56,472 bases of DNA from a virus: positions 1 to 56,472 of IMG/VR virus record IMGVR_UViG_3300019926_000239; one strand, 5' to 3'. Below, piece by piece: positions 7,216-44,853 of the stretch (the stretch's first letter is position 1; each line of letters starts with the position of its first letter). The position numbers and the translations under genes are program-made. The notes under the pieces are model-generated. The model had not been told where the DNA came from, did no database searches, and worked only from the letters and a program-made list of their open reading frames with translations.

Positions 7216-7274
7216 ATGAATGCGTCAACCCCTTAGCCTACCGCGCCACGTAAACCCACTTGGATATTCGTTGC

Positions 7275-7283: not shown

Positions 7284-7307
7284 CTCTACAACCAATATAC
7301 AACTGTA

Positions 7308-29687: not shown

Positions 29688-30045
29688 GTGGGTTGAGCAA
29701 GAGGGTGAGGAATGGATGTTGTACCGCAACCAGGGCAACACGGCGGCACTCATCACGCCGGACAACCCTCTCCGACAGTGCCGGGCACCAAGCGTCCTCG
29801 CCACGGTAAGAGTGACGCGCCAAGCGTTGCGTATGGCGGAATACCTCGGCTTCGCAAACGCGCGCATAACACCCGCACTCGTGGATAAGGACTCTCTCAA
29901 GACCGTCCCAGGTTTGTGGGTGCGCCCGCACGACGACGACTACCGTACGGTTGAGTATGAGGGTGAGGAAGTGCATCTCCTCGTAGCGGGGCGGGATGTG
30001 GACGACGACGAGGCGGAGGAATACAACGTGGCGAAGGTGAGGTGA
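29680..30045 (+). CDS. Hypothetical alpha/beta protein, 121 aa
   Basis: ATG overlaps the previous gene; GGAGGAGG is the Shine-Dalgarno sequence. Includes EWMLYRNQGNTAALITPDN and LWVRPHDDDYRTVEYEGEEV, a strand-rich pattern. Conserved family not recognised. Located in the resolvase operon. Confidence 0.7.
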   Translation: MVEWVEQEGEEWMLYRNQGNTAALITPDNPLRQCRAPSVLATVRVTRQALRMAEYLGFANARITPALVDKDSLKTVPGLWVRPHDDDYRTVEYEGEEVHLLVAGRDVDDDEAEEYNVAKVR

Positions 30046-30047
30046 GT

Positions 30048-30485
30048 ATGGTCAAACCAGAAGACCGGCTACCGGATGGCGTGGATACGGTTGAGGAGTA
30101 CCGTGAACTACCGCCTACGGTGAAAGGCGACATCGAGGTGGACGCCACACGCATTCCCAAGAAGTACGCGCGCCCACCGCGGCACGAACTCGAACAGATA
30201 ATCGAGGAGGGCGATGAGCGTACGGGCATCTACGTGGTGGCGGAACACTACGATGTGGGTGACAGCGTAGCCGGACGGTGGTTGTGCCACTACGGGTTAT
30301 ATGAGCCGGTGCGTGACGAGGACGGCAACGCTACGGAAGCGGGCACTTGCAGCGACATGGGCAAACGCCTCATCGAGATGGACCCGGACGAGTTTAGCCG
30401 TGAGTACGTGCCGGAACGGCTACGCCGCGACCAGGGTGAGGAGGTAACTCGCCAAACGAACGAAATGTTCGCGGAGGGGGATTAG
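30048..30485 (+). CDS. HTH-like protein, paralogue of the gene at 745
   Basis: Residues about 48-85 read RHELEQIIEEGDER, then VVAEHYDVGDSVAGRWLCHY, a helix-turn-helix of the homeodomain type found in phage small DNA-binding proteins. The C-terminal DPDEFSREYVPERLRRD repeats the tail of the paralogue. ATG at 30048 is chosen over GTG six bases upstream because of spacing to GGTGAGG. 145 aa. May regulate or bind viral DNA. Confidence 0.75.
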   Translation: MVKPEDRLPDGVDTVEEYRELPPTVKGDIEVDATRIPKKYARPPRHELEQIIEEGDERTGIYVVAEHYDVGDSVAGRWLCHYGLYEPVRDEDGNATEAGTCSDMGKRLIEMDPDEFSREYVPERLRRDQGEEVTRQTNEMFAEGD

Positions 30486-30486
30486 C

Positions 30487-30819
30487 GTGGGCTACCGCAC
30501 GGAGTGCCACTTCGATGGTTGCGCCACGCGGTTCGTTGCGGTTTCACGCGGCGAGTACCTCGAACACGTCGAGGAGGTACACGGTGAGGTTGAGGCGGAG
30601 ATATATCGAGAAGTGAGCGGGCAAGAGGTTGAGGAGATGGATGTACCGCCGGCAGCGGTGGTCGAGTATGCCGTCGAGTCGCTTGAACAGATACTACCGG
30701 TACCACTCGACCAGGTGGAAATCGAGAGCATCGACGTGGCGTTTGACCCCACGGCGGAACGTAGCCACTCGTTCACGTTCGACTTTGAGGACGAGGAGGG
30801 CGGCGGGCAAGATTCATAA
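30487..30819 (+). CDS. C2H2 zinc-finger protein, 110 aa
   Basis: GTG start right after the previous stop, with GGAGGGGG upstream. The N-terminus is a classical C2H2 finger: CHFDGCATRF, then YLEHVEEVHG, with Cys-x4-Cys and His-x4-His. The rest is acidic helix and strand, with LDQVEIESIDVAFDP. C2H2 proteins are typical of archaeal viruses and usually act as DNA-binding regulators. Confidence 0.75.
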   Translation: MGYRTECHFDGCATRFVAVSRGEYLEHVEEVHGEVEAEIYREVSGQEVEEMDVPPAAVVEYAVESLEQILPVPLDQVEIESIDVAFDPTAERSHSFTFDFEDEEGGGQDS

Positions 30820-30845
30820 CCAGGCGGCGGCAATACCGTGGCAAC

Positions 30846-31088
30846 GTGGGCGAACTACCTCGGTGTCCCGATTGCGGGCGTGCCGACCTCAAGCGCGGCA
30901 AGCGTGCCGAAGTGGTGCGTGGTTATTGGTGCCCGGATTGCGTGCGCCTCATCGAGTTCGAGGAGGTACACGACCACCGCCTCGGCAACCCGTCGAGTTT
31001 CGGCACGTTAACGGACATCGTTGAGAGCCAACAACAACCAAGCGAGCAAGAGGACGACAACAAAGGAAACTTCAAACATGGCAGATAG
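30846..31088 (+). CDS. Zinc-ribbon protein, 80 aa
   Basis: Four cysteines (CPDCGRADL and YWCPDC) form a ribbon. The C-terminal half is Gln/Ser/Asp-rich and probably disordered. The GTG start is the first plausible in-frame start after the previous stop. The end overlaps the next gene by eleven bases. Confidence 0.6.
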   Translation: MGELPRCPDCGRADLKRGKRAEVVRGYWCPDCVRLIEFEEVHDHRLGNPSSFGTLTDIVESQQQPSEQEDDNKGNFKHGR

Positions 31089-31356
31089 AATCGCAAGAAT
31101 AGGCGTAGCGTTGACCGTGGCGGGTTTGGTGTGGGCGGGCGTGGTGTATTACACACACGGCGTCAACAACGCACTACTCGCCCTCGGAATAGCAACGGTC
31201 GGGTTCCTCCTCACCGCCGCCGGTGCGGATGAGGACGAGGTGGTTACGGTATGCGAAGCGTGTGGTGCCGACCCGGTGCCGCCTCAAGAGGGTGGCGTTT
31301 ACCGGTTGTGTGAGCCGTGCGAGGACGAGTTGCCAACGGACGCGGAGGGTGAGTAA
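31078..31356 (+). CDS. Membrane protein with C-terminal zinc ribbon, 92 aa
   Basis: ATG inside the preceding gene. Two hydrophobic helices (about 6-24 and 30-48: VALTVAGLVWAGVVYY and ALLALGIATVGFLLTAAG) are followed by a ribbon with CEACGADP and CEPCEDE. Likely anchored in the host membrane with the zinc part on one face. Role unknown. Confidence 0.7.
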   Translation: MADRIARIGVALTVAGLVWAGVVYYTHGVNNALLALGIATVGFLLTAAGADEDEVVTVCEACGADPVPPQEGGVYRLCEPCEDELPTDAEGE

Positions 31357-31357
31357 C

Positions 31358-31810
31358 GTGGGCGGCGCGGGCAAAGAGCGCGGCGTCGTTAAGGCGTTCT
31401 ATGAGTTGGGTTTCGCCGTGCAACGTTCACCGAGTAGCGGCAGCGCCACGGAACGAGAGTTACCGGATATAACGGTGCTACAACGCGACGAGGTTGATGG
31501 TGTGGTGAGGGCGCGGGCGATGGCGATTGAGCATAAGGCGACCAGCGACACCACCGCGTACGTGGACGGGCAAGAGGTTGAGGAGTTGCGTGAGTACGCG
31601 CGCCGTGCCGGCGCACAACCATACCTCGGCGTCAAGTTCAAAAAGAGCGGTGTGCGCCGTCCGCACTACCTGGTTAAGCCGAAGGATGCGCGCCTCACCA
31701 GCGGCGGCAACTTCGGGCTACCGCACGCGGATGTACGTGAACGCGCCGTATATGAGGTCTACGAGTCCACGGAACAGAAGCCGGCGGAGTTCAACCGCGT
31801 CGAGGAGTAA
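31358..31810 (+). CDS. hjc: Archaeal Holliday junction resolvase (Hjc-like), 150 aa
   Basis: Conserved features of Hjc nucleases are visible: N-terminal KERGVVKAFYELGFAVQRSP and SGSATERELPD with D37, then AMAIEHK with E58 and K60 (the E-x-K of PD-(D/E)XK nucleases), and AGAQPYLGVKFKKSG. The enzyme cuts four-way junctions, likely to resolve replication or packaging intermediates. GTG start one base after the previous stop. Length fits the family. It ends the operon and is followed by a T-rich terminator. Confidence 0.85.
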   Translation: MGGAGKERGVVKAFYELGFAVQRSPSSGSATERELPDITVLQRDEVDGVVRARAMAIEHKATSDTTAYVDGQEVEELREYARRAGAQPYLGVKFKKSGVRRPHYLVKPKDARLTSGGNFGLPHADVRERAVYEVYESTEQKPAEFNRVEE

Positions 31811-31814
31811 CCGG

Positions 31815-31834
31815 GTTTTCGTTTTTTCTTTTTT
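31815..31834 (+). terminator. T-rich terminator after the resolvase gene
   Basis: GTTTTCGTTTTTTCTTTTTT directly follows the stop codon. Poly-T tracts end transcription in archaea. A second T-rich run (GTTTTTTGGTTTTTGG) lies at 31930-31945. Confidence 0.65.
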
Positions 31835-31980
31835 GGTAGCGTGAGAGATAGGCGGGCGTGTGACGGGAGTACCGTAACACTACGATAGGACGGCACCGTT
31901 ACGTATGGCGATTGTGTGTTTTTGAGGACGTTTTTTGGTTTTTGGATGCGCCGGTACTACTACTATTCTAACCTAATAAG

Positions 31981-32002
31981 TTACCATACCGTTACCGTAC
32001 CG
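31981..32002. repeat. Tandem 11-bp direct repeat upstream of RHH gene
   Basis: TTACCATACCG is followed at once by TTACCGTACCG. The pair is five bases upstream of the TATA box of the RHH gene, so it is a good candidate operator for self-regulation. Confidence 0.6.
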
Positions 32003-32005
32003 ATA

Positions 32006-32015
32006 GGATTTAAGC
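32006..32015 (+). promoter_or_regulatory. TATA box of the RHH gene
   Basis: GGATTTAAGC is about 30 bp upstream of the ATG at 32044, suiting a leaderless or nearly leaderless transcript. Confidence 0.55.
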
Positions 32016-32043
32016 CGTATGCTACCGCATCCGTTAGCGTACT

Positions 32044-32640
32044 ATGTCGGAGGAAAACGACCGCACCCAGGTGGGCGCACGTGTGGATACGGAAATCTAC
32101 GAACGGTTCAAAGAGTATAGCGAGAGCGAAACCGGGAAATCCTCAAAGGGCGTCGGGGAAACTCTTGAGAAGGCGATGCTTGAGTATATGGACGACGACC
32201 GGTTGAGCCGCATCGAAAACAAGGTTGACCGCCTACTCGATGGCAGCACCCAAAAAGAAAAAACGCCAAAAACGGGCGACCCGTCACGGCGTGAGAAGCG
32301 GTTAAGGCAGATTGAGTCCGACCTCGCCGGTGAGGACGAGGTGGTTACGCAAGAGGATGTCAACGACCTCATCCGTAAGCACGCCGGTGGCAGCAAGCCG
32401 ACGCTACGTGAGTATAACCGGCGGCTACGTGAGCGCAAGAGCGTGTTCCCGCGCCCGAACCACGACTCGATAGTTTACACGGATGCCGAACGTTTTGTTC
32501 GTGAGGTGAACGAACTCGCGGAGAGCAAGAGCCTCCGACCGGCAACGTATGAGGAGACAGTCGAGCGGTATGGGCGCGCGTGGTGGCAGCGGCACCTTCC
32601 GGCAAGCGATGAGCCGGACGACGACCGTGCGTTCTCATAG
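32044..32640 (+). CDS. Ribbon-helix-helix DNA-binding protein, 198 aa
   Basis: N-terminal residues 8-55 (TQVGARVDTEIYERFKEYSE, SSKGVGETLEKAMLEY) fit the RHH fold of CopG/MetJ-type regulators. A short coiled segment and a basic C-terminal region (REYNRRLRERKSVF) follow; the C-terminal half is absent from simple RHH regulators and may bind another partner. The tandem repeat upstream is a likely target. The gene is alone in its transcription unit. Confidence 0.75.
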   Translation: MSEENDRTQVGARVDTEIYERFKEYSESETGKSSKGVGETLEKAMLEYMDDDRLSRIENKVDRLLDGSTQKEKTPKTGDPSRREKRLRQIESDLAGEDEVVTQEDVNDLIRKHAGGSKPTLREYNRRLRERKSVFPRPNHDSIVYTDAERFVREVNELAESKSLRPATYEETVERYGRAWWQRHLPASDEPDDDRAFS

Positions 32641-32670
32641 GGCTAAATTTAAGGCGGCGTGGCGTTTACG

Positions 32671-32726
32671 TGTGTGTGAGTGCCGAGGTGGTTTCCGGTA
32701 AAGGGTTCACCTCACACACACTTTTT
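32671..32726 (+). terminator. Hairpin terminator after RHH gene
   Basis: TGTGTGTGAG (32671-32680) pairs perfectly with CTCACACACA (32711-32720), followed by CTTTTT. The loop holds GGGTTCACCTCAC, the reverse complement of the shared leader's Shine-Dalgarno block, perhaps a decayed reverse promoter. The rest of the gap to 32876 is GC-rich with no gene. Confidence 0.55.
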
Positions 32727-32876
32727 ACCGCCGCCGCCTCGGCGTCTCATTTAACACGAGTCCCATACCGTGTTCACCTCCCTTTGGCGCGGCGGCACGT
32801 GCGCGGGCAACCGCGTCACCGCCGCGTTTTCCTACTTACTCGAACACTAACCCACGGAAGGCGCGGGGCTACGCCA

Positions 32877-32933
32877 CCATAAGGTATAAGTGATACCGCC
32901 ACGGACGATAAGGTAGAAGGTGAGGTGAACCAG
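32877..32933 (+). promoter_or_regulatory. Shared promoter and leader, type I
   Basis: CATAAGGTATAAGTGATACC, then GCCACGGACGATAAGGTAG and AAGGTGAGGTGAACCAG before the ATG at 32934. The upstream AACCCACGGAAGGCG is shared with 40460. Confidence 0.75.
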
Positions 32934-34016
32934 ATGCAACAAAGCGAACCACTAAGAGAAATACTCGGCAACCTCGCGGATGAGTACGCCGAAGGCAACC
33001 CCGACGTACAATTCGACGACCAACCCCGCATCAGCACGGACGGCGAAACCATATACGTGAACCCGGAGTTCGCGGATATGCTTGGCATCGACGTAAGCGC
33101 CGCGAACGAGTTCCGCCTCGTACGCAACACCCTCAACCATGAGGTTGCGCACGAACTATATAGCGACCTCGAAGCCAAAGAGGAGTTCGGCGCGCGGTAC
33201 GAGGACGAGGGTTACACGCAAGTAGCCGGCACCGTTCTCAACATACTCGAAGATGCGTACATCGACGCGCGCCGGCTTAGTGAGTACCCAGGGCTACGGC
33301 AAGCGCAAGCGTTCTTCGCGGAGAACCAGATGGACGAGGACGTGAGCGAAAAGCCCACCGGCGAAGCACTACTCACAAGCATCCACCAGATAGCCCTCGG
33401 CGGGCGTGTCAACGGCATCAAGGACGCGGATGAGGTGGTGCGCGACTTTGCGGCTTGGGTACGCCCACGCGTGGTCGAGGTGCGCCGCACACACACCCAG
33501 GACGAACGCGTTGCGCTTGCGGCGGAGGTCACGGATAAGGTCACGGAACTCCTCGACCAACACGGCACCCAGGAACCCGACCTTAGCGACCTCCTCGACG
33601 CACTCGATAGCATGAGCGGCGGCGAACTACCGGACGACGCCGAAATCGAGAACGCGGAACCGCTAACCGACGAGGAGATGCCCGACATGGATGGTGCGGC
33701 GATGCCCGACATGGACGCCGAGGACATGGGTGAGGGTGAGAGTGAGCAAGCCGGCGGTGGCGAGTGCGACGGTGAGGGTGAGGGCGACGAGGGCGATGGT
33801 GAGGGTGGCAGCGGCGACGGCGACGGTGAGGAGGGCGACGGCGCGGAAGGTGAGGAGGGTGATGAGGGCGATGGTAGCGCCGGCGACGAGGATGGCGGTG
33901 AGTACGGTGAGGGTGAGGGTGACGCCAACGGCGGCGGTACACCGGACGAGGAGATGAGGGACATCGACTCACTACTCGACGGGCGTAACCCCGCCGACCT
34001 CAAGATAACCGAGTAG
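32934..34016 (+). CDS. CobT-N-like HExxH metalloprotein with acidic tail, 360 aa
   Basis: Residues 65-75 read TLNHEVAHELY, giving H69-E70-x-x-H73, and ILEDAYIDARR follows with E106-D107. This pairing (HExxH then N-x-x-E-D) is typical of the N-terminal part of CobT/VWA-associated proteins. The second half is a very long Gly/Glu/Asp-rich region (about 225-335). In usual proteins a VWA domain follows in the same chain; here it is in the next gene. Expected to act with the VWA protein and MoxR ATPase. Metal-dependent activity is inferred. Confidence 0.7.
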   Translation: MQQSEPLREILGNLADEYAEGNPDVQFDDQPRISTDGETIYVNPEFADMLGIDVSAANEFRLVRNTLNHEVAHELYSDLEAKEEFGARYEDEGYTQVAGTVLNILEDAYIDARRLSEYPGLRQAQAFFAENQMDEDVSEKPTGEALLTSIHQIALGGRVNGIKDADEVVRDFAAWVRPRVVEVRRTHTQDERVALAAEVTDKVTELLDQHGTQEPDLSDLLDALDSMSGGELPDDAEIENAEPLTDEEMPDMDGAAMPDMDAEDMGEGESEQAGGGECDGEGEGDEGDGEGGSGDGDGEEGDGAEGEEGDEGDGSAGDEDGGEYGEGEGDANGGGTPDEEMRDIDSLLDGRNPADLKITE

Positions 34017-34174
34017 GTACCGCGTGGTGCCGCGGCGCGCCGCGCCCGCGCGCACCTAACGGTCGATATACGAGTTTTCACGCGCTAACGTATGTTCGCG
34101 TATGCCCTTAGACTATGACACCGCGCCGTACCGGACTTTTTCGTGGACTATGAGGCACACGCGCACATATCTAA

Positions 34175-34233
34175 GCATAAGGTATAAGTGGTACCGCCAC
34201 GGACGATAAGGCAGAAGGTGAGGTGAACCCAAG
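34175..34233 (+). promoter_or_regulatory. Shared promoter and leader, type I
   Basis: CATAAGGTATAAGTGGTACC, then GCCACGGACGATAAGGCAG and AAGGTGAGGTGAACCCAAG before the ATG at 34234. Confidence 0.75.
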
Positions 34234-35394
34234 ATGGCAAAACTAACAGACGGCAGCGAAACGATAGCAAGCAACCTAACGCCCAAAGAGGTGCGCGCGC
34301 TACGCAACCGCGGCGTTGAGGTGTCGATGGAGATAACGCAAGAGTCCGGCACCGGCGCGGGCGACGAGGAGGAAATCGAGGACGAGAAGGACGAACTCGA
34401 CGAACTCGATGAGGAGGGTGAGAACACCGAGTGGCATGGTGTGGATGAGGATGAGGATTATGAGAGCGCAAGCCGTAGCGACCGCCGCCGCGTTGAGCGC
34501 GCACAACGTGAGGCGGACAAGAACGAGACGCCACTCGGCAAGCGCATCAACGACCGCGACGAGCGCATCACCGGCGGCGATAACCCGTACTACAACAACG
34601 AACAACTACGTGAGGAGATGGCGGACAACAACATGATAACGGACGTGCGCCGGGCGTTCGAGAAGTTCGCCACCGAGGACGTTAAGCGCCGGGAAACCAG
34701 CGGCGACCGCCTCAACATGAGAGCCGCCACCCGGCACCTAAGCGGCGACTACTCCGAGCGCCACGTTTACGAGAGCGAATACACCGCGGCAACCGGTGGG
34801 CGCACGATAGGCGTGGCACTCGACATAAGCGGCAGCATGGACGGCATACGCATCAAGCAAGCCAAGATGGCACTCGCCTCACTTGCGGAAGCCGCCGATG
34901 CGATAGGCGATGAGTTAGTGGCAAGCGGCTACACGACGGCGGACACCTCGACCGGTGCCGAGGACATCCGAACGCCACTCATCACGGCACCAGGTGAGTC
35001 GTTCCGATACAAGCACCTCGACAGCGTGGCACCCAACGGCTACACGCCCACGGCGTGCGGCATCAACGACGCCGCCGACCTACTACGCGACGAGGGCGGC
35101 AAAGAACTCGTCCTGGTGTGTATTACGGACGGCGTGCCGACGCACGACCTCGAAGGCAACCACCTCGGCGACGGTGCCACGGAGGCGGTTGAGGACGCGG
35201 CACGCCTCACCAACAAACTACGCGCGGAGGGCATCAAGGTGTTCGGCATAGGCATCGGCGGCGCACGACGCGACCTTATGCGTGAGATGTTCGGTGAGAG
35301 CGGGTTCGTTATGACCACCAGCGACCAACTTGCGGACGACTTGGTTGAGATGTACGAAGACCAACTCGACATCGAGCGCCCGCACTCGTTCTAA
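34234..35394 (+). CDS. VWA (von Willebrand A) domain protein, 386 aa
   Basis: A full MIDAS metal site is visible: D197-x-S199-x-S201 in LDISGSMDG, the Thr of YTPTACG (T273) and D299 in CITDGVPTHD. The N-terminal part is acidic and helical, with LNMRAATRHLSGDYSER before the VWA domain. Such proteins work with MoxR AAA+ ATPases in protein or cofactor remodelling. The C-terminus ends after a standard VWA helix. It has its own copy of the shared promoter. Confidence 0.85.
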   Translation: MAKLTDGSETIASNLTPKEVRALRNRGVEVSMEITQESGTGAGDEEEIEDEKDELDELDEEGENTEWHGVDEDEDYESASRSDRRRVERAQREADKNETPLGKRINDRDERITGGDNPYYNNEQLREEMADNNMITDVRRAFEKFATEDVKRRETSGDRLNMRAATRHLSGDYSERHVYESEYTAATGGRTIGVALDISGSMDGIRIKQAKMALASLAEAADAIGDELVASGYTTADTSTGAEDIRTPLITAPGESFRYKHLDSVAPNGYTPTACGINDAADLLRDEGGKELVLVCITDGVPTHDLEGNHLGDGATEAVEDAARLTNKLRAEGIKVFGIGIGGARRDLMREMFGESGFVMTTSDQLADDLVEMYEDQLDIERPHSF

Positions 35395-35658
35395 CGCCGC
35401 CACCCGCCGCACCGCACCGCACCGCACTACTCTTTTCCCCGACCTCCTCGACTCGACGCCGGCAGCGGTTTCTATATGTTGAGGTTGGGCATGGATACCG
35501 ACGAGATGTAGTCCTCGACGTGGCGATGAGGTCGTCGAGACTCCTCGTACGTGGTTGAACGGCGCGGTGGGCGCGGGCACGCGCGGTTCCACGCGGTGAT
35601 ATGCGGGCGATATTGCGGTGGTCGAGGGGCACCCCGCCGCCGTATGGCGATTGCCCCA
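35395..35658. other. Gene-free stretch between the VWA and MoxR genes
   Basis: No convincing gene on either strand. It starts with a short tandem repeat of ACCGC (35411-35425) and a T-rich spot (CTCTTTTCC) that may end the VWA transcript. The middle (35470-35560) has TTCTATATGTTG, resembling a TATA element, but only short frames follow. The end carries the GC-rich repeat at 35571 and the MoxR promoter. Confidence 0.4.
35571..35598. repeat. GC-rich intergenic repeat
   Basis: GCGCGGGCACGCGCGGTTCC followed by ACGCGGTG. Same motif as near 6635 and 40434. Confidence 0.55.
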
Positions 35659-35719
35659 CCATAAGGTATAAGTAGTACCGCGGTGAATGGACGAATGCGA
35701 GCAAAGAGGTGAACCCAAG
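35659..35719 (+). promoter_or_regulatory. Shared promoter and leader, type II
   Basis: CCATAAGGTATAAGTAGTAC, then CGCGGTGAATGGACGAATG and CGAGCAAAGAGGTGAACCC before the ATG at 35720. The leader matches the one at 48582 almost exactly. Confidence 0.75.
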
Positions 35720-37096
35720 ATGGCAAAAAAGAGCGACTACATCAAGGCGATAGCACAGAACGACGAGAACCCCACCGCGGACGAGATAGCCGACGAGGTT
35801 GACGAACACCTCGGGCACACGCAACGCAAACTCAAGGAACTCGCCGAGGAGGGCGAGATTGAGCGTGAGCGCGGCGGCAACGGCTACGAATACTTCCTCC
35901 CCGCGGAGGCGGAGGCGCTTGTGGGTGAGGGCGGCAGCAACGGACTCGACCGTATGCCCGTTAACCGCGGCTACGATTTCAGCAACCACCGCGTTGAGGA
36001 ACCCCACGAATACTTCTCAAGCGACGACGAGTTAGCGGAACTCAACGCGATGGTTAACGCGCGTGAGGCAACCGGCGAACCCGTGCGCGCACTCATAGAC
36101 GGCGACACCGGCACCGGCAAAACAACCCTCGCCGAAAACGTGAGCGCGCTACAAGAAGCCGCATACTTTGAGGTTCAGATGTCCCCCAACATGGACGAGG
36201 GCGACCTATTTGGTAGCCCGGCACTCGCCGGCGACGAAAGTGTGTGGGTGGACGGCACGGTTACGAAGGCGCTTATGGCAAGCGCGGCACCCGAAACCCA
36301 GGTCAAGAACGGGTGGGCGGCAGACCTCGAAAGCGCACACGACGGCACCGTGGTTCTCCTCATAGACGAGGTTAACCGCGCACCGCCACGCGCTAAGAAC
36401 GCACTCTTTAGCGCACTCGACCACCGCGGGCACGTTACGCTTGAGGGACCGCGCGCCGGTGAGGTCATAAGCGGCGACCCCCTCGACCTGGTTGTTATAG
36501 GCACCATCAACCAGGGCGATGAGTACCACGGCACGGCGCGGATGGACTTAGCCGAAAAGAGCCGGTGGACGACGAGGTTCACCAGCGAGTACCTGGCACA
36601 AGACCCCGACGGTGAGGGCGTTGAGCGCGAGGCGGAACTCTTGGTTAGCCGTAAGGGCGTTGCGCCGGAACTTGCGCGCACGATGGTCGAGACGGTTGCC
36701 CGCGTACGCAAGCGCGCCAACGACCGGAGTGACCGCGCGGTAACGTTCGGCATACCTACGCGTGCGGTGCTTGCGTGGGGCGGCACGGCACACGCCCTCG
36801 CCGAAGCCGGTCTCGACAACCCCGTGGTGCGCGCCGCGGAACGCGCGGTGGTTAAGCCGTTCTACGACAAGGCGGAACACCAGGACGCCCGCGACGAGGT
36901 TATGAGCATCATCGAGGACAAACTACACGGCGCACCCTTTGAGGCGGACGCGTACGAGGAGTTCGCCGCCGACGAGATTGTTGAGTGCGGCGAGTGCGAC
37001 TACCGCACCAGCAAGCGCCGCGCCGAGGACGAGGGCGTGATGGCGGTTATGGAGTGCCCGGAATGCGGCGGCACGGTTGAGCGTAAGAGCCGGTAA
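35720..37096 (+). CDS. MoxR-like AAA+ ATPase with N-terminal wHTH and C-terminal zinc ribbon, 458 aa
   Basis: Residues 1-70 form a winged helix (ADEIADEVDEHLGHTQRKLK). The AAA+ core has Walker A GDTGTGKT (128-135) and Walker B LIDEVNRAPP with D216-E217, then GTINQGDEY as sensor. MoxR-type features such as DLFGSPAL are present. The C-terminus adds a zinc ribbon (CGECDYRTS and CPECGG). A DNA- or RNA-reading end on a MoxR ATPase is unusual. It likely powers the VWA/metalloprotein pair encoded just upstream. Confidence 0.85.
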   Translation: MAKKSDYIKAIAQNDENPTADEIADEVDEHLGHTQRKLKELAEEGEIERERGGNGYEYFLPAEAEALVGEGGSNGLDRMPVNRGYDFSNHRVEEPHEYFSSDDELAELNAMVNAREATGEPVRALIDGDTGTGKTTLAENVSALQEAAYFEVQMSPNMDEGDLFGSPALAGDESVWVDGTVTKALMASAAPETQVKNGWAADLESAHDGTVVLLIDEVNRAPPRAKNALFSALDHRGHVTLEGPRAGEVISGDPLDLVVIGTINQGDEYHGTARMDLAEKSRWTTRFTSEYLAQDPDGEGVEREAELLVSRKGVAPELARTMVETVARVRKRANDRSDRAVTFGIPTRAVLAWGGTAHALAEAGLDNPVVRAAERAVVKPFYDKAEHQDARDEVMSIIEDKLHGAPFEADAYEEFAADEIVECGECDYRTSKRRAEDEGVMAVMECPECGGTVERKSR

Positions 37097-37188
37097 GCCA
37101 ACAACCCGCCGCGGCACCGTGCGGCACGCGGCGGCACCGGCACCACTCAACCACTACCGCACCCACCCGCGTACAACCGCACCCAACT

Positions 37189-37197
37189 CTTTTATCC
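37189..37197 (+). promoter_or_regulatory. TATA box, leaderless class
   Basis: CTTTTATCC lies 22-30 bp before the ATG at 37219. Confidence 0.5.
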
Positions 37198-37218
37198 GCG
37201 CCACTTCAATACGCACCT

Positions 37219-37731
37219 ATGGCAGACCTAACCATCGCCGACACGCGCGTAGTACGTGACCACGGGAACGAATACACCGTCGAGGTGGACGTTAAGAATG
37301 AGGGTGACGCCACCGCCGGCGGGCTACTTGAGTTCGAGTATAGCGGTGAGCGGCTATCGCAGCAATACACCAACATCGAGGGCGGACGCACCGGCACCGT
37401 ACGGGCACGCGTACCGGAACCGGCGGCGGCTAACTCGGAGACGCCCAACGTAGCCATCACGTACTCCGGTGAGGTACTCGGCAGCGTGGAACTCAAGGCT
37501 ACCACGCCACCCGACGAGAAGTACGCCACGCGTGAGGAGGTTGAGGCGCTACGCGGTGAGGTGGACGGACTCGAAAACGCGGTTGCGGAACTACGTGCCG
37601 AACTCGATGAGGTCGAGGACGAGGCAAACCAGGACGTACCGGACGGCGGCAGCGCCGACAACGGCTTGGGCGAAACCGTGGAGGAGGGCGTGAGCGTAGC
37701 GCGCCGCATCCTCAACGCGTTCAGCAAGTAG
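37219..37731 (+). CDS. Ig/CARDB-like domain plus coiled coil, 170 aa
   Basis: Residues 5-90 are a beta sandwich like CARDB (TVEVDVKNEGDATAGGLLEF and PNVAITYSGEVLGSVELKA). A coiled coil (about 100-135) and a flexible Gly/Asp stretch follow, then a short helix at the end. No signal peptide is visible, so it probably is a virion or intracellular protein. It is leaderless by its TATA spacing. Function unknown. Confidence 0.65.
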   Translation: MADLTIADTRVVRDHGNEYTVEVDVKNEGDATAGGLLEFEYSGERLSQQYTNIEGGRTGTVRARVPEPAAANSETPNVAITYSGEVLGSVELKATTPPDEKYATREEVEALRGEVDGLENAVAELRAELDEVEDEANQDVPDGGSADNGLGETVEEGVSVARRILNAFSK

Positions 37732-37793
37732 CCGGAAACCCGCATATACAACCGCGTTCGACCGCTTTTAGCCGCGTGAACCCGTGGGTGTGA

Positions 37794-37809
37794 GGGTGGA
37801 AAACCACCT
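37794..37809. terminator. Hairpin between converging genes
   Basis: GGGTGG-AAAA-CCACCT lies between the end of the forward CARDB gene and the end of the reverse wHTH gene. An upstream T-run (CGCTTTTAGCC) is near 37774. It may serve as terminator for both. Confidence 0.45.
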
Positions 37810-37822
37810 TCCACAACGGGAT

Positions 37823-38134
37823 TTACTTTGAGTTAAACCGGAATTGTTCTCGTGGGTGTCTCTCTCCACCAAACCCCTCTTTCAAGAAATCCTCGTCGTG
37901 AGGTTCCGGCGGCTTCTCCTCCGACGTGGCGCGGTAGCACCCATCCGCCGGTTGGTACACCTCACCGTCGCGCTTGAGGTCGGCAAGCAACCAGGCGAGC
38001 CGTGAGGGTGAGCCACCACCCTCCTCGACAAGCGCGTGCCGTAGGTGTTCGTACGGCACACCCTCATCCCCCTCGTCGTGTTCGTGCAAGTACCTCAACA
38101 CATCGTTCCGGTGTAATTCGTCCACCTCACTCAT
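37823..38134 (-). CDS. Winged-helix regulator, 103 aa
   Basis: ATG at 38134 (MSEVDELHRNDVLRYL) is preferred; an ATG 15 bases upstream is possible. Residues 8-70 match a winged helix (VPYEHLRHALVEEGG, LAWLLADLKRDGEVYQ). The tail is polar. A TTAAGG element about 28 bp upstream suggests a leaderless start. It diverges from the AbrB-like gene at 38194, a common arrangement for paired regulators. Confidence 0.7.
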   Translation of the reverse strand: MSEVDELHRNDVLRYLHEHDEGDEGVPYEHLRHALVEEGGGSPSRLAWLLADLKRDGEVYQPADGCYRATSEEKPPEPHDEDFLKEGFGGERHPREQFRFNSK

Positions 38135-38193
38135 ATCGTTATCGTGCATCCCGTTAGCCTTAAGCGCACCGGCGTATTACTGAATAATACAAT

Positions 38194-38655
38194 ATGGGTG
38201 AACCCGAACCCCTACTCGACGCGGAGAGCAACGCCCGCTATCCCGAAGCGATAGTTGAGGAACTCGCAACACGCATCGGCGCTAAAGACCACGCCACGGT
38301 TGAGGCGTGCAACGTACCGGATGAGCCGGCGGAACCGTGCCACCTCATAATAGCCGTCACGGACGAGGAGTTCAACCCACGCGTACCGCCGGCGGTGGTG
38401 CGCCTACTCGAAAAGTATCCCACCGAGGTAGACCCCTCAAGCATCGAGGCGGACGACGCCGGCGTGCTACGCCTACGCGTGAACGTACACCAGGGCTTCA
38501 CGCCCGTCGAGCGCACCAACTTCGGCAAGTGGGGCAACTCGGTGGCGGTGAGCATACCACGCACCGCACTCGAATTAAGCCGGCTTGAGGAGGGCGACGA
38601 CCTGGTTATGAAGGCGCGGGAAAGTAGCATACTCTTGAGCAAGCCGCCGAGGTGA
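38194..38655 (+). CDS. AbrB/SpoVT-type DNA-binding protein, 153 aa
   Basis: The C-terminal 45 residues (FGKWGNSVAVSIPRTALE, LEEGDDLVM) are a swapped-hairpin AbrB domain like those of haloarchaeal regulators and antitoxins. The N-terminal 105 residues are acidic with strands and no known motif. It stands alone after a divergent promoter region and is followed four bases later by the 578-aa gene, so it might regulate that gene. Confidence 0.75.
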   Translation: MGEPEPLLDAESNARYPEAIVEELATRIGAKDHATVEACNVPDEPAEPCHLIIAVTDEEFNPRVPPAVVRLLEKYPTEVDPSSIEADDAGVLRLRVNVHQGFTPVERTNFGKWGNSVAVSIPRTALELSRLEEGDDLVMKARESSILLSKPPR

Positions 38656-38659
38656 GGCG

Positions 38660-40396
38660 ATGCAAGACACCAGCATCAGGGAAATAATCGACGTGGTTGA
38701 GGGCTTACCGGTGTGGAGTTGGCTACCGCCGCGTCCCCTCACGTCACGCGAGTTCGTTTGCGCGCTACCGGATACGCTACCGTACGCGTACGTAAACATC
38801 TACGCACTCACGGACGACGACTACAAGCCGGACGACACCTTCCGGTTGTTCCTCCTCAAGACGCCAAACCGGTACCACGCGGTGCGCAAAGGCGGCGGCG
38901 ATGTTAGGTGGTACCGTAGCGGCAGCGACGACGGCGACTTACCGATACAAGAGGCGGCGGAAAGCCTCACCCGCCAAATAGCCGAGGGCGAACGCCCGGT
39001 AACGGTGGCGATATGGGACGACTCGGAGGAGAAAGGTAAGAGCGGCGTGGCAACCCTCGACTATGAGAGCGCACCCGCGCGCCGGTACCTCAAGAGTCTC
39101 GACAACGTGAGCAAGCAACGCACACAACACACCTACGCGGCACCAGGCACTTTCGAGGGTTCGGACGGGCGCACGCAACCGGCAACCACGCGCCTACGCC
39201 TCGCCGTCGAGAGCGAACGCGAAACCGGCGCGTTGAGCGAGGAGGTCGATGAGGTGCCCGCCGCACTCGACCGCGCGGCGCGGCATACGTACCTAATGGG
39301 TGAGGAGGTGGCACCGTGGGAGGAGTTGGACGCCTCGGATGGATATGTAGCCGCAAGCCAATTCTACGTCAACGAATACGGCGATAGCCGCGACGTTAAC
39401 ACGGTAGCCGACTTACCGTACACCAGCACCCTCGAAAACGACGCCGAATTTGAGGTTTCCGGCGGCACTCTCGCGGTAGCCGACGAGGAGACGTTCGGCG
39501 GTGAGGCACAACGCACTACGTACGTGCCCACACGCGTCAACGTGGGCGATATAGTCGTCCGATATGGCGGCGGGTGGAAGCAACTACGCACCGCCGACCC
39601 GTTCGAGAGCGTAACGTATGACGGCGTGCAACCGAACGCGCTTGAGCCGGAGGATTATGAGGTCACGGAGACGATGTTACAAGAGGAGTCCGGCGGCAGC
39701 GCCACCCTCCTCAACGCGGCGGTCGAGGTGCCGCGTGACCAGGTGGATTTCAAATGGCAAGCGCCTACGGCAAGCCACGCGGAAACCAACAACATCGCCG
39801 GCACACCAACGTCCACAACCGCGCACTACACCGGCGAGGTTGAGGCGGTTATCGACGACCTCACTTCGTTATATGGCGACGAGATTGTTGACGAGATGTT
39901 CGACCGTGAGACGATACAAAGCACCCTCAACAACATCGAGACGTTGAGTGAGGCGCTTGCGGATGTGAGTGAGTCCGTTGAGCAATCCATCAAAAACCTC
40001 GCACCGGCAGCAAAGGCGGCGCGCAAGAGCGCCGAAAGCGTAGCCGATGGTATGGAAACCAGCGGCGTGGTCGAGGGTATGAACGACGCGCTTGAGGGTG
40101 TGGGCGCGGCACCCGACATCGAGGAGTTGACGGTAAGTGAGGAGTTCAAGGACGAAATCGAGGAGATACGTGAGAGCGCGCGCCTACGCCGTGAGGAGGA
40201 GTATGAGGAGGAGGGGATGCCGTATTCCATTTTTGAGGATGAGGACGATGGTGAGTATGAGGTGGTCGAAACCGGCGTCCCGGTACGCGAGTGGGGCAAC
40301 CTCACGGATATGGTGGAAGGTGAGTTCCCCGAGTTGAGCGAGGAGGAAGTTGAGCGGGTGGCGCAAGAGTTGGCGGATGTGGCGCGGGAACGGTAG
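38660..40396 (+). CDS. Large protein with WLP-type N-terminal domain and coiled coils, 578 aa
   Basis: The start (GLPVWSWLPPRPLTSREFVC, then FRLFLLKTPNRYHAVR) matches the N-terminal part of the protein encoded at 51992 (APMWAWLPGRALKPRELAA, then WFLLKTESTYTEV). The middle holds beta-rich segments, and residues about 395-460 are helical with SESVEQSIKNLAPAAKAARK. The C-terminus is strongly acidic. Likely a virion or membrane-remodelling protein, but no enzyme motif can be seen. Confidence 0.65.
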   Translation: MQDTSIREIIDVVEGLPVWSWLPPRPLTSREFVCALPDTLPYAYVNIYALTDDDYKPDDTFRLFLLKTPNRYHAVRKGGGDVRWYRSGSDDGDLPIQEAAESLTRQIAEGERPVTVAIWDDSEEKGKSGVATLDYESAPARRYLKSLDNVSKQRTQHTYAAPGTFEGSDGRTQPATTRLRLAVESERETGALSEEVDEVPAALDRAARHTYLMGEEVAPWEELDASDGYVAASQFYVNEYGDSRDVNTVADLPYTSTLENDAEFEVSGGTLAVADEETFGGEAQRTTYVPTRVNVGDIVVRYGGGWKQLRTADPFESVTYDGVQPNALEPEDYEVTETMLQEESGGSATLLNAAVEVPRDQVDFKWQAPTASHAETNNIAGTPTSTTAHYTGEVEAVIDDLTSLYGDEIVDEMFDRETIQSTLNNIETLSEALADVSESVEQSIKNLAPAAKAARKSAESVADGMETSGVVEGMNDALEGVGAAPDIEELTVSEEFKDEIEEIRESARLRREEEYEEEGMPYSIFEDEDDGEYEVVETGVPVREWGNLTDMVEGEFPELSEEEVERVAQELADVARER

Positions 40397-40401
40397 CCGG
40401 C

Positions 40402-40450
40402 GCGCGCCTACGCGCGGCACGGCGCAATATCCCGCGGTTCCACGCGGTGC
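40402..40450. repeat. GC-rich intergenic repeat
   Basis: Begins with a 24-bp block identical to 1789 (GCGCGCCTACGCGCGGCACG and on) and continues with CCCGCGGTTCCACGCGGTGC. Confidence 0.65.
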
Positions 40451-40487
40451 TTATTCCTAACCCACGGAAGGCGTAGGGGCATACACC

Positions 40488-40543
40488 CATAAGGTATAAG
40501 TAGTACCGGTACGGACGATTAAGTAGAAGGTGAGGTGAACCAA
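40488..40543 (+). promoter_or_regulatory. Shared promoter and leader, type I
   Basis: CATAAGGTATAAGTAGTACC, then GGTACGGACGATTAAGTAG and AAGGTGAGGTGAACCAA before the ATG at 40544; same core as at 6724. Confidence 0.75.
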
Positions 40544-40861
40544 ATGATAACACAAACCAGCGAACTCACGGACGCACTCGAAGCCGGCGACCGCATCGAA
40601 GTAACGTACACCAGCAACCAAAGCGGCAACCGCAAGACACTCACCGGCACCGTTGAAAGCGTAGCCGGCAGCACAACCGGCGGCTACGACTTCGGTGAGG
40701 TCAACCTTACGACGGACGAGGGCGACCAACGCCGCATCAACGCGCAACCGGTAGACGACTTCAAGGTTGAGGCGCGCGTCAACGACCTCGACACCGGCAA
40801 GCACCACACCCGCAAGATAAACGCCACCGCGACCGACGTGGGCGTTGAGGTGGTGGCGTAA
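40544..40861 (+). CDS. Small beta-barrel-like protein, 105 aa
   Basis: Contains ALEAGDRIEVTYTSNQSG and TLTGTVESVAGS, a strand pattern like an SH3/KOW barrel. Similar opening to the gene at 1932. The start follows the shared leader. The stop touches the next start. Unknown function. Confidence 0.7.
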   Translation: MITQTSELTDALEAGDRIEVTYTSNQSGNRKTLTGTVESVAGSTTGGYDFGEVNLTTDEGDQRRINAQPVDDFKVEARVNDLDTGKHHTRKINATATDVGVEVVA

Positions 40862-41068
40862 ATGAGCGCACTCGACAGCCTCAAGAGCGACGACGACGTG
40901 CGCACCCTCAACACCAGCGAAGGCACGTGGATTGTATGGGTACCGCCACAACCCGCGCGCCACGTGCCGGACATCGTTGAGGTGTGGGACGAAACCCAGG
41001 ACGAATATGAGGTAACGCACCGCGGCACCACGGAAAACAGCACCGCGTACGAACTCACGCGCAAGTAA
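40862..41068 (+). CDS. Small hypothetical protein, 68 aa
   Basis: The ATG directly follows the TAA of the gene before. Contains TWIVWVPPQPARHVPDIVEV, then DEYEVTHRGTTENSTAYELT; mostly strands. No family recognised. Second gene of a two-gene unit. Confidence 0.65.
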   Translation: MSALDSLKSDDDVRTLNTSEGTWIVWVPPQPARHVPDIVEVWDETQDEYEVTHRGTTENSTAYELTRK

Positions 41069-41093
41069 GCCGGCGTTTCACCAACCCCACAAC

Positions 41094-41103
41094 CATTTTA
41101 ACC
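41094..41103 (+). promoter_or_regulatory. TATA box, leaderless class
   Basis: CATTTTAACC lies 21-30 bp before the ATG at 41124. A similar CATTTTAGCC precedes the gene at 44201. Confidence 0.55.
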
Positions 41104-41123
41104 GCTATCCACGTAAGCGAGGT

Positions 41124-43514
41124 ATGGAGTTTTCGGAGTTACCACAACCGGAACGCAAAGAGCGGGTGAACCCGGACGAGTTGGATGTGGATGGCGATAA
41201 CCCCAACGCGATGAGCGGGGCAACCCTCGACCTCCTCAAGCAAAAGATACGCGACCGCGGGTGGATAGGCAACCACATAATAGCCGATACAGACGGGCTT
41301 ATAGCCGACGGCGAACACCGGTGGCGCGCCGCCCGCGACCTCGGGCTTGACGAGGTGCCGGTGAAGTTCTACGACCTCACCGACGAGGAACGCCGGCTTA
41401 TACGCCAAGAACTCAACAAGATACGCGGCGAACACGACGCCGGCGACGACGCCGATGAGTACGAACGCCTACTCGAAAACGGCTACGATGAGGAGTTGGG
41501 CGACCTCCTCGACGCCACCAGCGACACCGGTGAGTTGAGTGAGGTGCTACAAGAGGCGAAGGATAGTGAGCAAGAGCGCACCGAGGAGATAGTTAAAGAG
41601 GTGGAACCGGAATACAACCTCGAAAACCCCACCACCAACTCACTCGCCGACGACTTCGGCGCACCACCCATAAGCGTCCTCGACGCGAATCAACCGTATT
41701 GGCGTGACCGGAAGCAAGAGTGGCGGGAAACCACCGGCTTGGGTGACATAGACGAGGCGCGTGAGGAGATACAAACCACGTCGAGCGAACGGATGAACCG
41801 TAGCGGCACCGGCAGCACCACAAGCATATTCGACCCCGTGCTTGCGGAACTCATGTACCGGTGGTTCGCACCAAGCAACGCCACCGTCCTCGACCCGTAC
41901 GCCGGCGGGTTAGTACGCGGCGCACTCGCATCCTGGTTCGGGCATGAGTACCACGGCGTTGACATAAACGAGGAACAGATAGAGGTCAACCGCCGCCGGT
42001 GGGACGAGGAGGTGACGCCGCCCGAAACCGCGCCGGACAGCGTAACGCCGCCCACATACCACCACGGCGGCGCGCAAGACATCCCCGAGCCACTCGACGA
42101 CGGCGCACCGGACGAGTACGAGTTCATACTCGCGTGCCCACCATACCACGACCTCGAAGAATACACCGACCAAGAGAACGACCTATCGAACATGGCGTAC
42201 GACGAGTTCTTGATGCACTACCGTGAGAGCATCATAAACGCCGCCGACCTCCTCAAAGACGGGCACTTCGCCGTCTACGTAGTCGGCGACGTACGCGACG
42301 ACGAGGGCGCATACCGCGGTTTGGTAGCCGACACCATCAAGTGCGCACAGAACGCGGGCTTGAGCCTATACAACGACGCCGTGATGCGCACACCACTCGG
42401 CAGCGTACAACTCCGCGCCCGCAACTTCTTCGTCCCAGGGCGCAAACTCGTCAAAAGCCACCAAAACATCCTCGTATTCTACAAAGGCACGGAACCGGAT
42501 ATACACGCCATCGAGGAGACGCACGGTGAGCCAAATGAGGCGGTGGATATGAAGGCGGATAGCGTGGTGCGTGAGCAAGTAGCCAAAGAGGAGGACGAGG
42601 CGGCAACCAACGGCACCACGGAAACAACCACCAGCGAAGAAACCACCAACGCCGACGAGTTCACACCACCCACCGACCACACGCCCGACGTATCACCTAT
42701 CGAGGAGTACCAACACAACGGCGGCACCGTACACGTGAAACGCGACGACGCCTACGTGTGGGCGGGCGTACGCGGCATCAAAGGGCGCGCACTCAACCAA
42801 CTCATCAACGAAGCCGACCTCGACCAGCACAACGGCATAACGATGGCGTGCGCACGCCAAAGCCCCAACACCATACGCATCGCCAACCTCGGCGAGTACC
42901 TCGACGTTGAGGCGCACGTCCACACCTCACACGGCGGTTATACCGAAGTAATGGAAATCGCCGAACAACAAGGCGCAACCATACACCAGCATAAACCAGG
43001 GTACATGAACGTCATCAAATCCAAAGCGCAAGAGGACGCCGAGGAGAACCACCGCCTACTCATCCCCTTCGCCGTAAAACACCCGGTGGCGCGTGACGTA
43101 GCCGCCACACAAACCACCAACGTACAACAACACATCGACGAGGAGGAACCCAACCGCATCGTAGCACCCGTCGGCAGCGGCACAAGCCTAAGCGGTTATC
43201 TCAAAGGGCTACACGAAGCCGGCTACACCAACACACCCATACTCGGCGTCAAAGTAGGCAACGACCCCACGCCCACCCTTAACGAACTATATCCTGGGTG
43301 GCGGGAAAACCACGACGCCACCGTTGAGTTGGTGGAAAGCGACCTCGAATACCAAGAGACGCCACCCACTAACAAACAACTCCTCGGCACCGGCAGCCAA
43401 CGCCTAAGACTCGACCCCAACTACGAGGCTAAAGCAATCCCTCACTTAAAAGAGGGCGACCTTATGCTTGTCGTCGCACTACGTAGCACACTACCACCAC
43501 ATCCGTACGAATAA
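41124..43514 (+). CDS. ParB-like / DNA methyltransferase / PLP-enzyme fusion, 796 aa
   Basis: Three domains follow each other. Residues 1-120 are ParB/Srx-like, with LIADGEHRWRAA. Residues about 200-465 are an N4/N6 DNA methyltransferase of the phage ParB-linked kind: SAM site VLDPYAGGLVRGALASWFG and catalytic CPPY at 338-341, then FAVYVVGDVRD and HQNILVFYKG. After a Thr/Glu linker, residues about 540-796 look like a fold-type II PLP enzyme: VKRDDAYVWAGVRGIKGRAL with K553, ARQSPNTIRIA, and phosphate loop VGSGTSLSGYLKG from G684. The PLP part is rarely joined to a methyltransferase. A role in DNA modification is inferred. Confidence 0.8.
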   Translation: MEFSELPQPERKERVNPDELDVDGDNPNAMSGATLDLLKQKIRDRGWIGNHIIADTDGLIADGEHRWRAARDLGLDEVPVKFYDLTDEERRLIRQELNKIRGEHDAGDDADEYERLLENGYDEELGDLLDATSDTGELSEVLQEAKDSEQERTEEIVKEVEPEYNLENPTTNSLADDFGAPPISVLDANQPYWRDRKQEWRETTGLGDIDEAREEIQTTSSERMNRSGTGSTTSIFDPVLAELMYRWFAPSNATVLDPYAGGLVRGALASWFGHEYHGVDINEEQIEVNRRRWDEEVTPPETAPDSVTPPTYHHGGAQDIPEPLDDGAPDEYEFILACPPYHDLEEYTDQENDLSNMAYDEFLMHYRESIINAADLLKDGHFAVYVVGDVRDDEGAYRGLVADTIKCAQNAGLSLYNDAVMRTPLGSVQLRARNFFVPGRKLVKSHQNILVFYKGTEPDIHAIEETHGEPNEAVDMKADSVVREQVAKEEDEAATNGTTETTTSEETTNADEFTPPTDHTPDVSPIEEYQHNGGTVHVKRDDAYVWAGVRGIKGRALNQLINEADLDQHNGITMACARQSPNTIRIANLGEYLDVEAHVHTSHGGYTEVMEIAEQQGATIHQHKPGYMNVIKSKAQEDAEENHRLLIPFAVKHPVARDVAATQTTNVQQHIDEEEPNRIVAPVGSGTSLSGYLKGLHEAGYTNTPILGVKVGNDPTPTLNELYPGWRENHDATVELVESDLEYQETPPTNKQLLGTGSQRLRLDPNYEAKAIPHLKEGDLMLVVALRSTLPPHPYE

Positions 43515-43631
43515 CCCTCCTCTTTTTGCATCAACGGCACGCCACCAACACGCCGCCACACGAAACCACGTGACGCCGCGCCGGTGCCGCAACTCATAAG
43601 AGTCCGAACGGCGTACCTCAAGCGAACGCAA

Positions 43632-44168
43632 ATGGGCGGCAAAGGAAGCGGCAGCAAAATCGAAGGCAAGTACCGCAACGTGAACGTACCAGCAAACAAA
43701 GAGCCGGATGAGTACGAAACCGCGGAGAGGCGTAGCGAAATCCTCGACGCAATCATCGAGGTCGGGCACCCGGATATGTTGAGCCGCACCGAGTTGGCGG
43801 CACGGTATGGCGTAGACCCCTCAACCATAACCCGCGATATTGACCGGCTTGCGGAGGAGGTGAATAGTGAGTTAGCCGACGACGCAGCACTCATCACCCA
43901 AACGGTGTTCCGCAAGAGCATCAAGGCGAAGATGGATGAGGGTGAGTATATGGAAGCGAAGGAGTTGGTTATGGATTGGAACGAGTACCTATTCGAGACG
44001 GGCACCCAGGCACGGGCACCGGAACGCATCGAGAAAACGGTTCGTGAGGCGGGCAAAAAGAGCGAGGCGTATGAGATTGTTGAGGACGACGAGGCGGTTG
44101 AGGCGGAGTTCGTTGAGGCGGAGGAGGTTGAGGAGTTGCCTACGGGTGAGGGCGACGGTGAGGCGTAG
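43632..44168 (+). CDS. HTH protein, candidate small terminase, 178 aa
   Basis: Starts MGGKGSGSKIEGKYRN; an ATG 48 bases upstream exists but the CTCATAAGAG TATA-like element lies within that extension. The HTH reads LSRTELAARYGVDPSTITRD, LAEEVN. The rest has AKELVMDWNEYLFETGTQ and a long acidic helix. The layout (HTH, oligomerising helices, tail) and position upstream of the large terminase fit a small terminase, though the gene at 44854 is an alternative. Confidence 0.55.
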   Translation: MGGKGSGSKIEGKYRNVNVPANKEPDEYETAERRSEILDAIIEVGHPDMLSRTELAARYGVDPSTITRDIDRLAEEVNSELADDAALITQTVFRKSIKAKMDEGEYMEAKELVMDWNEYLFETGTQARAPERIEKTVREAGKKSEAYEIVEDDEAVEAEFVEAEEVEELPTGEGDGEA

Positions 44169-44178
44169 CATTTTAGCC
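44169..44178 (+). promoter_or_regulatory. TATA box, leaderless class
   Basis: CATTTTAGCC lies about 23-32 bp before the ATG at 44201. Confidence 0.45.
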
Positions 44179-44200
44179 GCGGCGGGGCGTTAACCAGGGT

Positions 44201-44311
44201 ATGCCAGGTCAAGAGTTCGCCGCGCAACCGTCTACGTGCCCCGAGTGTGATAGTCCCGTGGTTAATGGTGAGTGTGTGCGTGCCGGTTGTAACTACACCG
44301 TCGAGGAGTAA
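44201..44311 (+). CDS. Tiny zinc-finger protein, 36 aa
   Basis: The protein reads CPECDSPVVNGECVRAGC after a short N-terminus, giving four cysteines in a C-x2-C-x8-C-x4-C ribbon. A leaderless TATA element at standard distance supports it. Probably a small regulator; cannot be assigned. Confidence 0.6.
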   Translation: MPGQEFAAQPSTCPECDSPVVNGECVRAGCNYTVEE

Positions 44312-44324
44312 CCGCGCGGAACCG

Positions 44325-44545
44325 CGGCTTACCACTCGCTCGCTAAAAACGACGAGACTCCTCCACGGCAGCGAGGGAACCCGTCGTTTCCGGCGAGTGT
44401 TTGTAAAGTTCTCGGACGAGAAAGCGAGGGAACCGTCAAGTTCGAGCGAGGGAACCGTCGTATAAGATACGAGGGATGTAAAGTTCGAGGGAAAGTCTCG
44501 TCCACGTATGTGGAGGAAAATACGAGGCTCCCCTCGCCGGAACGC
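44325..44545. repeat. Repeat-rich noncoding region (GCGAGGGAACC)
   Basis: No gene found. GCGAGGGAACC or GCGAGGGAACCC, each followed by GTC, occurs three times (near 44373, 44428 and 44448), with related ACGAGGG and TCGAGGG forms and two GTAAAGTTC copies. Inverted segments such as ACGACGAGACTCC and CTCGTC are also visible. A packaging (pac) site or an origin is possible so close to the terminase genes. Confidence 0.5.
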
Positions 44546-44550
44546 CACAA

Positions 44551-44559
44551 CTCATAAAC
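44551..44559 (+). promoter_or_regulatory. TATA box of the tRNA gene
   Basis: CTCATAAACC lies about 35 bp before the tRNA start, the usual distance for archaeal tRNA promoters. Confidence 0.45.
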
Positions 44560-44589
44560 CGGCGGGTGCCGTACCGCACTCCACCGCGT

Positions 44590-44663
44590 AGTCCCGTGGT
44601 GTAGTTGGGCAATCATACGGCGCTTTGGACGCCGCGACCGAGGTTCGAAACCTCGCGGGACTA
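44590..44663 (+). tRNA. tRNA-Gln (anticodon TTG)
   Basis: Cloverleaf can be drawn: acceptor AGTCCCG/CGGGACT; D arm with TGGGCAATC loop; anticodon stem CGGCG/CGCCG around CTTTGGA, giving anticodon TTG; T arm CGAGG/CCTCG around TTCGAAA; discriminator A. CCA is not encoded. It reads CAA, which the viral genes use far more than CAG, so it likely supplements the host pool. Confidence 0.9.
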
Positions 44664-44683
44664 TAAACGCAAGCGGGCGCTTA

Positions 44684-44850: not shown

Positions 44851-44853
44851 CGT

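Follow-up and report, generated by a model that had tools for sequence, protein, structure and literature searches.

In tailed viruses, bacterial and archaeal alike, gene pairs resembling cobST occur widely; they have been read as vitamin B12 genes (PMC8651126). What such a system does is a question raised by the IMG/VR record IMGVR_UViG_3300019926_000239, analysed here over its full 56,472 bases (the window), in which its parts are distributed over three separate genes. The window belongs to a tailed virus, kin of haloarchaeal viruses, and contains terminase, portal, MuF-like, capsid and tape-measure genes. Three open reading frames on one strand occupy positions 32934–37096 (32934–34016, 34234–35394 and 35687–37096 as first called). 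A sequence-only reading had recognized in them an HExxH/ED protein, a MoxR ATPase and a VWA protein whose MIDAS is intact, and all three reading frames and their domains were confirmed. The trio is a haloviral member of a MoxR AAA+/VWA/zincin family that is annotated as CobS–CobT in many tailed viruses.

Organization of the locus

The features of the locus are as follows.

32877–32891, + strand: promoter element CCATAAGGTATAAGT of the HExxH gene, exact match, followed by the leader GAGGTGAACC and ATG
32934–34016, + strand: P0001, 360 aa, zincin-like HExxH/ED domain (aa 1–209) and Asp/Glu/Gly-rich tail; N-half of viral 'CobT'
34175–34189, + strand: promoter element of the VWA gene, from the CCATAAGGTATAAGT scan and the leader pattern
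34234–35394, + strand: P0002, 386 aa, VWA protein with intact MIDAS and predicted NorD-type pore finger; C-half of viral 'CobT'
35659–35673, + strand: promoter element of the ATPase gene, from the CCATAAGGTATAAGT scan and the leader pattern
35720–37096, + strand: P0003, winged helix, MoxR AAA+ ATPase of CbbQ/GvpN/NorQ type and C-terminal zinc ribbon; corrected start

The zincin and VWA domains are not in one chain: the genes of P0001 and P0002 are separated by 217 nt, which include a promoter. At the DNA level, no phage matches to positions 30000–45000 of the window were found.

The element CCATAAGGTATAAGT has 19 matches in the window with at most three mismatches (0.5 expected), and these are distributed over the whole genome. 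About 16 of them, on both strands, stand before genes with the same type of leader (GAGGTGAACC...ATG). As this leader-plus-start pattern is common to some 16 genes, the start of the ATPase gene is placed at 35720, giving a protein of 458 aa, and not at 35687. Each gene of the trio does have its own copy of the promoter, as had been noted; the element is virus-wide, however, and the argument drawn from it is weak. A promoter specific to the trio was rejected for the same reason. The presence of CCATAAGGTATAAGT at genes across the genome indicates separate transcription units rather than a dedicated regulon.

The HExxH protein

P0001 carries HEVAH at residues 69–73 and LED at 105–107, followed by a tail rich in Gly, Asp and Glu; about 0.01 HExxH motifs are expected by composition in a protein of this kind. 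It is homologous to the N-terminal half of 'CobT' in phages of bacteria; hhalign gives 96.6% (E = 6.8e-10) and puts HE and LED in register. In a structural model of the N-domain (224 aa, eight sequences, pLDDT 79.6, pTM 0.73), helix 56–76 bears HEVAH and the next helix, 95–117, bears LED with the third ligand. When this model was compared with BFVD by Foldseek, the named matches of probability 1.00 were viral CobT/VWA proteins, including those of HVTV-1 and Gordonia phages. These comparisons support the assignment to a CobT-like N-half made in the sequence-only reading. A Foldseek search of the zincin domain model against the PDB gave no significant match; in a VIA comparison with the PDB the top rows were mostly zinc metallopeptidases (BlaR1, jannalysin, selecase and ArdC), with modest Z scores of 4–6. 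The zincin assignment therefore rests on the motif, the placement of the helices and these weak VIA rows.

In an alignment of ten N-domains, residues H69, E70, H73, E106 and D107 are identical in all seven haloviral proteins, whereas the same five site residues are lost in all three cellular haloarchaeal copies, which read HQAWR in two species of Haladaptatus and NHLSYCR in the remaining genome (G294). The N-domain was found in two of 391 haloarchaeal genomes, adjoining the ATPase both times. In bacterial phages HExxH is mostly retained; ICP2 is variable at the second motif, and the protein of Pseudomonas phage nickie is without HExxH, so catalysis is not universal in the family. A strict rule that phages always keep HExxH is ruled out by nickie. 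The intact zinc site of P0001 suggests that the protein probably cleaves an exposed target or target complex.

In nickie (L039, 5753–7837) the CobT-like protein has lost HExxH, and the VWA domain and the CobS-like partner are kept. Two Haladaptatus megaplasmids (L016, 5983–9219, and L022) carry a cellular MoxR ATPase with a fused VWA protein whose zincin site is dead; the L016 pair lies directly downstream of a ferredoxin–nitrite reductase gene, which suggests a maturation role like that of NorQD.

The VWA protein and the ATPase

P0002 matches Pfam VWA above the cut-off (3.2e-9) and has a complete MIDAS (D197-S199-S201, T271 and D299). It matches NorD in sequence (E = 2.3e-9), and NorD is also the best PDB match of its structural model (pLDDT 71, pTM 0.71; Foldseek 1.3e-13; Z 21.2, rmsd 7.1 over 241 residues). 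Residues 30–285 of this predicted structure align with NorD 382–638, covering the pore finger region. The next PDB matches are the MIDAS domains of Rea1/MDN1.

P0003 matches AAA_5 (3.3e-18) and phrog_29395 (3e-83), and is above the cut-off for CbbQ_C. Its Walker A motif reads GDTGTGKT and its Walker B motif IDE, and its alignment with NorQ runs through a helix-2 insert. Its nearest solved structures by sequence are NorQ (2e-6), then CobS, then CbbQ. NorQ–NorD, which serves to insert iron into nitric oxide reductase, is thus the solved system that best matches both the ATPase, by sequence, and the VWA protein, pore finger included. The likeness ends at three points: NorD is a single chain with an essential linker, whereas the halves in the window are two reading frames with no covalent linker; no HExxH zincin N-domain is known for NorD; and NorQ is described without winged helix or zinc ribbon (PMC13036017).

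These two additional parts of the ATPase, already pointed out in the sequence-only reading, are borne out by comparison with relatives. The winged helix (approximately residues 12–76) is matched by HTH_20 at the Pfam cut-off in the HHTV-2 orthologue, HTH matches in P0003 itself being weak. The cysteines of the ribbon (C434, C437, C457 and C460, in the arrangement CxxC...CxxC) are invariant in four aligned isolates. The C-terminal ribbon is present in 7/7 viral ATPases and in 0/6 of the cellular or plasmid ATPases compared. It is plausible that winged helix and ribbon would serve in DNA targeting.

Relatives and the split architecture

In a tblastn search of phage records, good similarity for all three genes was found only in Hardycor1, HHTV-2 and HCTV-2; weaker matches of the ATPase came from Gordonia, Brevibacterium and Thermus phages. 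A single-sequence pattern search of IMG/VR gave no close relatives of P0003, and IMG/VR adds the related contigs 46052, 46060, 46061 and 21446. Six or more further haloviral records contain trios, fused or split. Wherever an HExxH-type domain was found, the genes occur together; this and the homology between P0001 and the N-half of phage CobT agree with the proposal that the three proteins belong to one remodelling machine.

The closest known systems are those named CobST in Saparoviridae (HCTV-2 gp79/gp83; HHTV-2 gp2/gp3/gp10) and the pair of Hardycor1 (HrrHc1_245/240). They have all the domains of the window proteins: HExxH and ED, a MIDAS-type VWA domain, the winged helix and the zinc ribbon. 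Zincin and VWA domains are split in the window, HHTV-2 (in the same way as in the window), UViG 46060 and UViG 21446, and fused in Hardycor1, HCTV-2 and UViG 46061. The ATPase of Hardycor1 is 57% identical to that of the window, and in the ATPase tree the window groups with the fused Hardycor1 pair (100/100), while the split HHTV-2 groups with 46060 and 46052. Split and fused forms are therefore interleaved and the state has changed at least twice. Hardycor1, the closest relative of the window, is nevertheless fused and its adjacent genes differ, which likewise indicates that fission or fusion occurred more than once. The earlier statement that the two parts are usually fused elsewhere is too simple, since some relatives are fused, others split and others again VWA-only; fusion is usual in the family and, given the split forms of HHTV-2, UViG 46060 and UViG 21446, is not a strict criterion of membership.

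The split architecture is not new. Liu et al. (PMC8651126) named the system CobST, found it to occur widely and recorded the split of HHTV-2, and the other haloviral trios point the same way. The observation is correct and the system is of a known kind. What is added here is the finding that zincin sites are intact in the viral and degenerate in the cellular copies, the zinc ribbon of the viral ATPases that the six others compared do not have, the interleaved tree, the NorD match of the VWA model, scores below the CobS/CobT cut-offs and the replication-gene context.

Two further groups share part of this organization. Group 2.2 jumbo phages encode a MoxR ATPase and a metallopeptidase–vWA protein (Iyer et al., PMC7824862) with the same domain combination, the peptidase-like domain being N-terminal to vWA; unlike in the window the two are fused, and the passages of that paper on the pair describe it without mention of winged helix or zinc ribbon. 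Haloarchaeal plasmids (Natrinema pNPA70, Salinigranum, Halomontanus) have AAA–VWA cassettes in which, as in the window, a separate VWA protein accompanies a MoxR ATPase whose N-terminal region is HTH-like, but no zincin gene was found nearby and the zinc ribbon is absent; next to them lie membrane proteins and a P-loop ATPase of HerA/VirD4-like appearance. On haloarchaeal plasmids (L017–L019) this P-loop ATPase, the MoxR ATPase with its HTH-like N-terminus, the VWA protein and the membrane proteins form a conserved cassette, which may serve in DNA transfer or maintenance.

Comparison with cobaltochelatase

If the annotation is taken literally, ATPase and VWA protein would replace host chelatase subunits, drive cobalt insertion by the host CobN and raise cobalamin for nucleotide synthesis (PMC8651126). 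CobS–CobT is indeed an AAA+/VWA pair like that of the window, and among solved families in the PDB CobS ranks second for P0003; the phage proteins are homologous to Pfam CobT and CobT_C in their N- and C-domains, and Pfam CobT spans their zincin half. Among 97 haloarchaeal genomes, moreover, CobN is present in 53 and CobT in none. The scores of the window proteins themselves speak against the assignment. P0003 reaches 21.1 bits against PD_CobS (the equivalog TIGR01650), for which the NCBI curated cut-off is 558.6; neither P0001 nor P0002 matches the CobT equivalog TIGR01651, and Pfam CobT has no match in the window. CobN, the partner of CobS–CobT, and class II RNR were not found among the window proteins scanned, and CobN is missing from five of the eight haloarchaeal genomes that have relatives of P0003.

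The metal site, kept in the viral copies, is apparently lost in solved CobT, which has SMALR where HExxH would fall in a single weak alignment. A search with the phage profile A6 did not recover the N-domain of solved CobT, so the loss of HExxH in true CobT rests on that one alignment. For the C-terminal zinc ribbon, a chelatase would have no obvious use. None of these results requires that CobN be hijacked. We consider a chelatase function of the trio unlikely; the evidence points away from B12 synthesis and towards protein work in early infection.

Gene context

The surroundings of the pair were compared, with flanks of 3–7 kb, in 14 loci of bacterial phages or plasmids, picked from tblastn hits and several of them related. 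Genes for replication or recombination (DNA polymerase, primase, helicase, ligase, SSB, Hjc and recombination proteins) lie in the flanks of 13 loci. An annotated virion gene is near the pair in one only, that of P74-26 (head protein); in the related P23-45_stolb1 a similar place is annotated as a non-virion RNA polymerase. In the window, a gene for Hjc resolvase (31223–31810) lies just upstream of the trio.

This context bears on a role in virion assembly or maturation, one of the roles that the sequence-only reading had considered. A chaperone–protease of this kind has been proposed for virion assembly in the group 2.2 jumbo phages, whose pair has the same domain set (PMC7824862), and in ATV a MoxR–VWA pair acts on virions, in tail development (as cited in PMC7911831 and PMC7824862). 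The replication-type context and the upstream Hjc gene instead favour an early, DNA-associated role. The pair of Hardycor1 is likewise placed in a replication/accessory module (PMC7911831), and the window has its own candidate for a head maturation protease at 2486–4927. Virion maturation is accordingly disfavoured, and we judge it improbable for the trio.

The early-module context would also suit a machine for counter-defence or host takeover, unfolding or cleaving a protein of the host, for instance a replication or restriction factor. Of the haloarchaeal copies, only the viral ones have an intact zincin site, and the structural neighbours of the N-domain include the anti-restriction zincin-like protein ArdC. 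No defence-linked neighbours were noted, however, and a PADLOC scan for membership in defence systems gave no meaningful match, so that defence evasion, also suggested earlier, has found no direct support. Conservation of the pair beside replication genes in many phage lineages suggests a general task rather than a host-specific one. A function of this type seems doubtful to us.

Proposed mode of action

The reading that we prefer, and think somewhat more probable than all others together, is a remodelling machine resembling NorQD, equipped with a peptidase subunit and probably working on DNA-associated proteins early in infection. In NorQD, a finger of the VWA protein lies in the pore of the ATPase, and ATP-driven rotation has been proposed to stretch the linker between N-domain and VWA domain; linker deletions in NorD abolish function (PMC13036017). 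By analogy, P0003 would assemble as a hexamer, and the VWA protein would put its finger into the pore and hold a target protein via its MIDAS. Hydrolysis of ATP would then twist and remodel the target. The HExxH protein would be a third subunit beside the ring, cutting the exposed target or target complex. Since the zincin and VWA halves are in separate genes, a covalent linker of the NorD type is absent and the zincin would have to be recruited non-covalently, in trans. Winged helix and zinc ribbon probably direct the machine to DNA or a complex bound to it, and we infer from domains and context that it would act early, in replication or takeover.

A broader generalization is conceivable, and we offer it tentatively: the 'CobST' proteins of tailed viruses would not be B12 genes but an ATP-driven protease machine, widespread and belonging to the replication module, that pulls out or cleaves DNA-bound proteins, with the haloviral winged helix and zinc ribbon targeting it and the peptidase detachable as a separate subunit. 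Should the pairs prove to be a remodelling protease of that module, what has been concluded from them about B12 metabolism in viruses would have to be revised. With its three separately expressible proteins, the split version of the halovirus makes a direct test possible. Its separated subunits, together with the intact viral and degenerate cellular zincin sites, render the competing published roles testable.

Other genes of the window

The protein encoded at 2486–4927 (+ strand) has 813 aa, with a segment resembling head maturation proteases near residues 135–186 and a long remainder without assignment. Amid the head genes, an open reading frame of a transposase family (7260–8357, + strand; phrog_506, 7e-39) is probably an insertion element. 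At 41124–43514 (+ strand), a protein of 796 aa combines a ParB-like N-terminal domain with N4/N6 DNA methylase and PLP-dependent (threonine dehydratase-like) domains, and is a candidate DNA hypermodification enzyme.
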